Assembly: GCF_014132355.1 (NCBI RefSeq)
Contig: NZ_BLZO01000055.1
Location: 1 to 56,946, forward strand
Direction of reading: 5' to 3'
Length of the DNA stretch: 56,946 bases
DNA from: Okeania sp. KiyG1
GTDB taxonomy: Bacteria > Cyanobacteriota > Cyanobacteriia > Cyanobacteriales > Microcoleaceae
Shown: in pieces, positions 12,917 through 23,850 of the stretch
Layout: every line of letters begins with the position of its first letter
Numbering within the stretch: position 1 is the first letter of the stretch
The notes under the pieces: generated by a model
Databases searched by the model: none
What the model was told of the DNA's origin: nothing
Seen by the model: only the letters and a program-made list of their open reading frames with translations
Program-made: the position numbers and the translations under genes

Positions 12917-13375
12917 CTTCTTGCAAAAGTCAGGGAATAGTTCAATAATTAACAATTAATAATTAATAATTAATAATTACCTCTCCTTTAAAAGAGAGGC
13001 TTTAAACCTTAATTATTTGGTAATAGGGAATAGGGAGATGAAATTTTTTATTTCATAGTCTTGAATTGATTTAATTAACACTTTTGCAAGAGGTCTATTG
13101 TATTTGAAATCTCAAAAGCTTAAAACTCAGACAACGCCAAATTCTTCCTTCTTCCTTCTGCTATAGCAGAGGCCAAAAGGGAAAAACTGGCTATATAGCG
13201 CTACGCATTAAGTGTTTGACATGAATAGAAGCTGAAGACCTTTTGTATTCCCCTGTTGCCTGTTGCCTGTTGCCTGTTGCCTGTTGCCTATTGCCTTGCG
13301 CGTAGCGCTATATGACTTTTGACCTTTAAAATTTGATCTTAGTCAAGAGTTCAGAATTCTTATTTTTTGTCATAA
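12917..13375. other. Repeat-containing spacer
   Basis: No gene seen. It holds an AATTAATAATTAATAATT stretch with CCTCTCCTTTAAAAGAGAGG (about 12950-13010, resembling 43720-43850), and TTGCCTG heptamers at 13255-13295 beside a GCGCTACGC / GCGTAGCGC inverted pair (13198-13206 and 13300-13308). Confidence 0.45.
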
Positions 13376-13449
13376 TTTTCCACATAGATTCCACAGCATT
13401 TCCACAAGCAAGTTCAATGTTTTCCACAAATTAAACAGGGTTTTCCACA
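13376..13449 (+). promoter_or_regulatory. Phased cluster of five DnaA-box-like nonamers (candidate oriC)
   Basis: TTTTCCACA occurs exactly at 13376, 13420 and 13441. One-base variants GATTCCACA (13387, two changes) and ATTTCCACA (13398) fill the gaps. All five are in the same orientation, and the start-to-start spacing is 11, 11, 22 and 21 bases, so they sit on one face of the helix. TTTTCCACA is the DnaA box form known for cyanobacteria. An AT-rich stretch (about 13480-13620) follows, as expected of an unwinding element. No dnaA or dnaN gene lies in the window, so the assignment as replication origin, rather than a DnaA titration or regulatory site, is inference. Confidence 0.65.
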
Positions 13450-13745
13450 GACTTCAACGACATGATCATACTCTTGCAAATGAATTGGGGATTTTATTAA
13501 GCGGGTAGTAAACAGCTTCATATTAGCCAGTTTTTATAAAGTTTTATTACAAAAAGTACCCTGAAACACTGATTATTTCGTAAATCTTTTATTTGTTGAA
13601 AGCCTGCTGTAACATTTCTCTACATTGACAACCATACCCCCCCTTAGTACACAATAGTGCGACATTGGTAGTTCAAAGTCAGTGGTTTGTGGCCACAACT
13701 AGGGACTATGAAGAAGAAAAAATATACAGAGAATCTTACTTAAAC

Positions 13746-22936: not shown

Positions 22937-23850
22937 ATGTTCTATTATCTCTGAGCATGGAAATTTAGTTGAATAAAAAGTCATGCGTAGGGGCGAACGA
23001 CCCCTTATAGTCTTTATGATATCACAAAAATTGCGAGAATGCAGCCAAAAATCATTTGACACGCTGATTTTTTTGAGCTTCACAGAATGAAAAAAAGTTA
23101 GTTATTTTCCACTGAGGAGGTTTATAGATGGAAAAATTAGATGATAGGAAAAACCAACGAATGTTCTATTGTCTCTGAGCAAGGAAATTTAGTTGAATAA
23201 AAAGTCATGTGTAGGGGCGAACGACCCCTTATAGTCTTTATGATATCACAAAAATTGCGAGAATCCAGCCAAAAATCATTTGACGCGCTGATTTTTTTGG
23301 AGCTTCACAGAATGAAAAAAAGTTGGTGGTTTTCCACTGAGGAGGTTTATAGATGGAAAAATTAGATGATAGGAAAAGCCAACGGATGTTCTATTGTCTC
23401 TGAGCATGGAAATTTAGTTGAATAAAAAGTCATGCGTAGGGGCGAACGACCCCTTATAGTCTTTATGATATCACAAAAATTGCGAGAATCCAGCCAAAAA
23501 TCATTTGACGCGCTGATTTTTTTGAGCTTCACAGAATGAAAAAGTTAGTTATTTTCCACTGAGGAGGTTTATAGATGGAAAAATTAGATGATAGGAAAAA
23601 CCAACGAATGTTCTATTATCTCTGAGCATGGAAATTTAGTTGAATAAAAAGTCATGCGTAGGGGCGAACGACCCCTTATAGTCTTTATGATATCACAAAA
23701 ATTGCGAGAATGCAGCCAAAAATCATTTGACGCGCTGATTTTTTTGGAGCTTCACAGAATGAAAAAAAGTTGGTGGTTTTCCACTGAGGAGGTTTATAGA
23801 TGGAAAGATTAGATTATAGGAAAAACCAGCATTTATTTAGGATTTGCTGA
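22937..23850 (+). repeat. Four tandem ~223-bp repeats, each with a hairpin and a 16-codon mini-ORF behind a perfect Shine-Dalgarno
   Basis: Copies begin (at ATGTTCTATT) at 22937, 23161, 23386 and 23608, so the periods are 224, 225 and 222. Each unit contains GGGGCGAACGACCCC (a hairpin; first at 22990-23004), then AAAATCA.TTTGACGCGC.TGATTTTTT (a weak terminator-like stem), then AGGAGGTTTATAGATGG. From that ATG each unit encodes 16 residues, MEKLDDRKNQRMFYCL or a close variant: 23128-23178, 23353-23403, 23575-23625 and 23800-23850. The last is changed (MERLDYRKNQHLFRIC) but the same length. The AGGAGG box is 7 bases from the ATG in all four. The units are far too long for CRISPR. Function unknown. 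Confidence 0.85.

Follow-up and report, generated by a model that had tools for sequence, protein, structure and literature searches.

The window, by which we mean the whole stretch of 56,946 nucleotides that was analysed, carries a small gene of the DUF2811 family, upstream of which lie an array of DnaA boxes, a conserved motif at the 5' side of this array and a promoter-like block between the array and the gene (Table 1). The five sites with a TTCCACA core are all located on the plus strand and follow each other in steps of 11, 11, 22 and 21 bp, with exact copies of TTTTCCACA starting at 13376, 13420 and 13441, which confirms the three exact and two near sites in one orientation described in the initial annotation. 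Its statement that such phasing is hard to obtain by chance holds as well, as five cores within 74 bp were observed versus a maximum of two in 200 simulated windows (order-2 Markov model). The AT-rich stretch said to follow the array is present, but it is only moderately AT-rich, with AT fractions of 0.66, 0.70 and 0.72 for the first three 50-bp segments counted from 13450, and the small conserved gene expected behind it was recovered by the PF10929 profile. A cluster of DnaA boxes, as would be expected at an oriC, is thus found at 13376-13449. The AATTCTTAT motif, the inverted box and the promoter-like block are additions to the initial annotation.

Table 1 Features of the DUF2811 upstream region in the window.
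Feature	Position	Strand	Remark
Conserved motif AATTCTTAT, 5' of the array, putative element	13355..13363	+	strongly conserved in 68 anchored loci
DnaA box 1, exact TTTTCCACA	13376..13384	+	TTTTCCCCA or TTTTCCTCA in many relatives
DnaA box 2, GATTCCACA, weak, two mismatches	13387..13395	+	sequence match
DnaA box 3, ATTTCCACA, one mismatch	13398..13406	+	sequence match
DnaA box 4, exact TTTTCCACA	13420..13428	+	anchor for cross-locus comparison
DnaA box 5, exact TTTTCCACA	13441..13449	+	missing in 31 loci with a 21 bp shorter array-to-promoter distance
Inverted degenerate box, reads AAATCCCCA on the minus strand	13486..13494	-	45 bp past box 5
Promoter-like block TTGACA...CCCC...CACAAT	13625..13655	+	TTGACA with CCCC within 16 bp in 70/79 relatives; ~183 bp past the last direct box
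DUF2811 gene, 74 aa	13746..13970	+	PF10929, E 6e-29

No Rfam family matched near the array at E values up to 1, and a generic sigma-70 scan returned about as many sites as in shuffled sequences, the conserved TTGACA block being absent from its list. Two repeats were noticed in passing. CCTGTTG heptamers stand in tandem at 13251-13292, directly upstream of the array, and TTTTCCACT occurs at 23105, 23330, 23552 and 23777 of the window, roughly every 225 bases, which suggests that a unit is repeated here.

For comparison across genomes we used the best 80 of 206 DUF2811 matches, one contig each, among which the closest named relatives by DUF2811 belong to Okeania. We counted an array wherever the 900 bp preceding DUF2811 contained three or more TTCC[ACT]CA sites in a span of about 100 bp, which was the case in 76 of the 80 loci. 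In two of the remaining four (L026 and L040) the sequence available ahead of the gene is too short, one shows a displaced array and one altered boxes. The latter two were rejected as array-free loci after a wider or alternative match: the array of Baaleninema simplex PCC 7105 (L016) spans -1685 to -1620 relative to DUF2811, preceded by the conserved motif at -1706, and in L049 four TT[AT]TCC[AC]CA sites are found at -602 to -537, namely TTTTCCCCA, TTTTCCACA and two copies of TTATCCACA. The displaced array stands about 1 kb farther from DUF2811 than in relatives, for which an insertion is a possible cause. When both rules are taken together, the array is located upstream of DUF2811 in all 78 testable loci (one displaced, one with partly TTATCCACA boxes), which answers the question raised in the initial annotation whether it is conserved beside this gene in related genomes; absence from close relatives, there considered as evidence against its reading, was not observed, as close relatives carry the array.

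Of the 81 loci that include the window, 68 could be anchored on three phased sites, and in these 68 the information content amounts to approximately 1 bit per column across the element versus approximately 0.1 farther upstream. The genes on the upstream side belong to many different clusters among the loci, which indicates that the element travels with DUF2811. Downstream of DUF2811, an OmpR-type gene on the opposite strand is found in many loci.

The distance between the array and the promoter-like block is strikingly constant. Measured from box 4 to TTGACA it falls into two ranges, 182-184 bp (31 loci) and 203-206 bp (40 loci), with ten of the 81 loci left out because one part was not found. 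Box 5 occurs in none of the 31 short-distance loci, which are Nostocales by name, so that the last direct box is situated about 183 bp from TTGACA in both groups. TTGACA and the ATG are separated by a variable stretch of 104 to 445 bp. Of 19 blocks located in further genomes, 12 sit 181-184 bp past the last box, the seven exceptions being G385 (188), G177 (173), G577 (249), G205 (75) and three Synechocystis-like genomes; in many more genomes the block was not found by its TTGACA/CCCC motif. Boxes at a fixed geometry to a promoter, as expected for a DnaA-regulated promoter, are consequently found in 71 of 81 loci if the block at 13625-13655 is, as its sequence suggests, a promoter. An exact inverted TTTTCCACA follows 44 bp past the last direct box in G177, in G366 and in one copy each of G205 and G107.

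The latter two genomes belong to the small-genome cyanobacteria of family f25 (G107, G205, G114, G330 and others), which carry two to five DUF2811 copies each; in G107 and G205 at least one exact box is present upstream of both copies, the exact inverted box being confined to one copy of each. The DUF2811 protein itself is predicted to be all helical, with low scores (mean pLDDT 61.9, pTM 0.37), and no other Pfam family matched it convincingly. A likeness to a ribbon-helix-helix pattern, judged by eye, is unsupported, as the only hit of a profile search against PDB sequences was an unrelated chain at E 1.8. A search by the family name found no mention of DUF2811 in a PMC collection that covers few subscription journals.

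The initial annotation regarded the array as a candidate chromosomal origin. The genome is a 10.98 Mb draft in 198 contigs, and skew data therefore come from relatives only. According to PMC5987646, TTTTCCACA is the cyanobacterial DnaA box, and a putative oriC of Nostoc punctiforme is situated away from dnaA and dnaN. Across our genome TTTTCCACA occurs in 317 copies versus 126 for the reversed control pattern, and pairs in the same orientation separated by 2-32 bases were detected at three places genome-wide, i.e., between dnaA and dnaN on contig C61, in the array on C55 (the window's contig) and on C93, with none for the reversed control. The single DnaA match of the genome is on C61, and of the two beta-clamp matches one is on C61, the other at the end of C166. 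The dnaA-dnaN interval on C61 contains eight exact boxes, half of them repeated in tandem every 11 bp and the other half closer to dnaN, and represents the denser cluster elsewhere that the initial annotation had itself named as speaking against an origin; with these eight boxes on C61, the array is neither the main cluster nor adjacent to dnaA/dnaN. As to the GC skew, in the relative G366, a small genome with a V-shaped profile (40 samples of 20 kb over 1.93 Mb), the array at 952.8 kb is some 300 kb away from the cumulative minimum, which falls in the sample starting at 1,235,001, so that in this relative the array does not coincide with the minimum; the sampled profile of G036 is too noisy to be informative. 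Taken together with the fixed distance to the promoter-like block, the eight boxes on C61 and the position in G366 leave the origin claim unsupported, and the array in the window is probably not the chromosomal origin.

Two observations concern the other box clusters of this genome. The C61 boxes are split four and four by an IS605-type gene, whose two ORFs carry OrfB helix-turn-helix and Cas12f1-like TNB domains (L138:3030-5069, G000). The third TTTTCCACA cluster (C93:33724-33765, corresponding to L175:4225-4266, G000) has steps of 21 and 12 and is flanked by a WD40-repeat ORF and a PEP-CTERM/PKD ORF.

Investigating the distribution of DUF2811 (PF10929) and DnaA (PF08299) in a phylum sample of 386 genomes, with counts restricted to members of the window's class (Cyanobacteriia), we found both genes in 167 genomes, dnaA only in none, DUF2811 only in six and neither in 13 (Fisher p 8e-16, phylogeny ignored); all 13 class genomes lacking DUF2811 thus also lack dnaA. 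These 13 are spread over four families (f1, f6, f8 and f14), and other members of genera g4 and g13 keep both genes. An order sample of 374 genomes, overlapping the phylum sample, gave 293 with both, 18 with dnaA only, 14 with DUF2811 only and 49 with neither (Fisher p 2e-33, again with phylogeny ignored). Among the 18 dnaA-only genomes, 11 are at least 90% complete and most are fragmented drafts, with G459 being the only one that combines at least 95% completeness with at most 130 contigs. In the genus of G597 other members score near the DUF2811 cut-off, and some DUF2811 absences may therefore be missed hits. Phylum members outside the class are mostly dnaA-positive and free of DUF2811 but for one marginal match. 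Overall, DUF2811 tends to be lost along with dnaA. Where it persists in dnaA-less genomes, it is interrupted by internal stops in two (G306 and G147) and uninterrupted in five genomes of at least 99% completeness (G054, G183, G268, G374 and G571) and in seven less complete ones, indicating that DUF2811 can outlast DnaA or do something else.

The array itself was compared between genomes with and without dnaA by scoring 54 upstream regions with one rule, the genomes being chosen by dnaA status and family spread and not by the array. The 40 dnaA-positive regions contain at least three boxes in 24 cases, two in 11 and one in five. By the same main rule, three boxes are present in none of the seven dnaA-less genomes of at least 99% completeness that have retained DUF2811 or a remnant of it (G054, G147, G183, G268, G306, G374 and G571); G183 alone has two, and three sites under a looser one-mismatch rule. 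Among the less complete dnaA-less genomes, five of seven keep three sites (G394, G521, G568, G581 and G612, but not G398 and G484), and in these five dnaA may have been missed. The promoter block is kept and the array gone in G054, G374 and G484, the TTGACA region is kept and the boxes are eroded in G183 and G268, and no promoter block was found in G306, G147 and G571, so that the block or its TTGACA remains in four of the seven dnaA-less genomes of at least 99% completeness. The alignment of G054 is illustrative, as the array segment is missing between AATTCTTAT and the promoter block, both of which remain, and its upstream region contains no TTTTCCACA-type box with up to one mismatch. In three genera (g15, g54 and g34), the block has thus outlasted boxes that disappeared or eroded.

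A further hint comes from the dialect of the boxes. In G085, all ten boxes of the cluster beside dnaN and all seven of the DUF2811 array read TTATCC[AC]CA, and TTTTCCACA is still present six times in the 400 kb sampled. The upstream regions of 80 other loci contain 195 TTTT-type versus six TTAT-type boxes, with a TTAT majority in no locus. A matching dialect at oriC and array would be expected if one protein binds both places, as suggested here by one genome, G085. The array region of the four genomes inspected in genus g9 contains TTCCCCA-type boxes; we take this genus for Synechocystis, because G585 has a PsbO almost identical to the 8tow chain, which is from Synechocystis PCC 6803. The array loss in Synechocystis-like genomes indicated by a first array score was rejected, as the sequences contain these TTCCCCA-type boxes instead. 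According to PMC7198777, dnaA can be deleted in Nostoc 7120 and in Synechocystis 6803, and DnaA of Synechocystis 6803 is below detection. Relatives of both still have the DUF2811 gene and an array, and the TTCCCCA-type boxes in Synechocystis would fit a relaxed constraint, given a dispensable DnaA, although a similar box change is seen in G577, which is dnaA-positive.

Rather than a replication origin, the array seems to be an ancient control region, kept at a constant distance from the likely DUF2811 promoter. Co-loss of DUF2811 and dnaA, erosion of the array in the absence of dnaA and the TTATCC[AC]CA dialect shared with oriC make DnaA its likely binder. We consider it reasonably probable that the array is a DnaA-controlled promoter region for a small protein working together with DnaA. 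It would then be the half that DnaA binds, on the upstream side, in a regulatory region of rigid layout driving DUF2811. DnaA might load on it cooperatively, as the comparative evidence supports for the arrangement of the boxes already proposed in the initial annotation, using up to five direct boxes on one helix face and the inverted box 44-45 bp further on. Bound at a constant distance of some 183 bp, DnaA would activate or repress the promoter, and the DUF2811 protein would act in the DnaA pathway, in the simplest form as a feedback modulator of DnaA. More tentatively, and as a proposal we would not yet put on a par with the control region itself, DUF2811 could be an unrecognised dedicated partner or regulator of DnaA under its direct control via the array, in a feedback loop as old as oxygenic cyanobacteria that was repeatedly dismantled upon loss of DnaA.

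The main rival to a DnaA-controlled promoter, although in our view an unlikely one, is that the array mainly serves as a site of DnaA titration or inactivation, like datA of E. coli or a cluster of B. subtilis, the DUF2811 gene being secondary. A spaced DnaA-box cluster outside oriC with sequence and spacing under selection has the anatomy of datA (PMC4585315), clusters outside oriC affect initiation in B. subtilis (PMC5295017), and a titration site would also erode in complete dnaA-less genomes, as the array does. However, a pure sink requires neither the fixed 183-bp distance to the block nor DUF2811 as an almost constant neighbour, and it leaves the co-loss of DUF2811 unexplained. Moreover, a conserved position relative to the origin, as expected for datA/DARS-like sites, is not found in four genomes: array and dnaA are at 1.03 Mb and 1 kb in G002, at 0.79 and 0.69 Mb in G022 and at 6.63 Mb and 1 kb in G382, and in G366 the array is about 0.3 Mb from the skew minimum.

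Direct repeats of 11 bp also suit regulators of the OmpR/PhoB type, and with an OmpR-type gene downstream on the opposite strand in many loci, a response regulator of the OmpR family, or another regulator than DnaA, might bind the array instead. We regard this as improbable. The boxes of the array agree with those of the dnaA-dnaN interval, G085 uses one dialect at oriC and array, and the boxes are eroded in the complete dnaA-less genomes, with the block or TTGACA retained in four of these seven. Less probable still is a secondary or alternative replication origin, for which the phased boxes adjoining a moderately AT-rich stretch and the multiple-origin replication reported in some cyanobacteria (PMC7198777) could be cited; it is opposed by the larger box cluster between dnaA and dnaN, the position of the array off the skew minimum in the relative G366 and its fixed geometry to the promoter-like block.

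The control of DnaA in cyanobacteria and its role where chromosomes replicate without it are described as open questions in PMC7198777. With the array wired to DUF2811, a named gene and a defined 75-bp array can be offered for testing control by DnaA. In the same PMC collection, a search for cyanobacterial DnaA ChIP-seq together with DnaA boxes yielded one paper, which by its title and the beginning of its abstract deals with origin-finding methods.

Comparing the array with known systems, it resembles the cyanobacterial oriC between dnaA and dnaN in the box sequence and in the 11-bp tandem phasing seen in this genome, but is located elsewhere, without adjoining dnaA or dnaN and off the skew minimum in the one usable relative. 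In E. coli, datA, DARS1 and DARS2 are short non-coding sites where three to six DnaA boxes cluster away from oriC, and their spacing is under selection (PMC4585315). The array in the window is likewise a short, conserved DnaA-box cluster outside oriC with selected spacing, whereas its boxes are mostly direct, helically phased and tied to one gene and a promoter-like block, and its distance to the origin varies among the genomes compared. DnaA-box clusters outside oriC are also described in B. subtilis (PMC5295017), and DnaA is reported to serve as a transcription factor at some sites (PMC4447404). Unlike the B. subtilis clusters, the array of the window is one element of fixed geometry over much of the phylum, and genomes without dnaA usually lack the adjacent gene as well.
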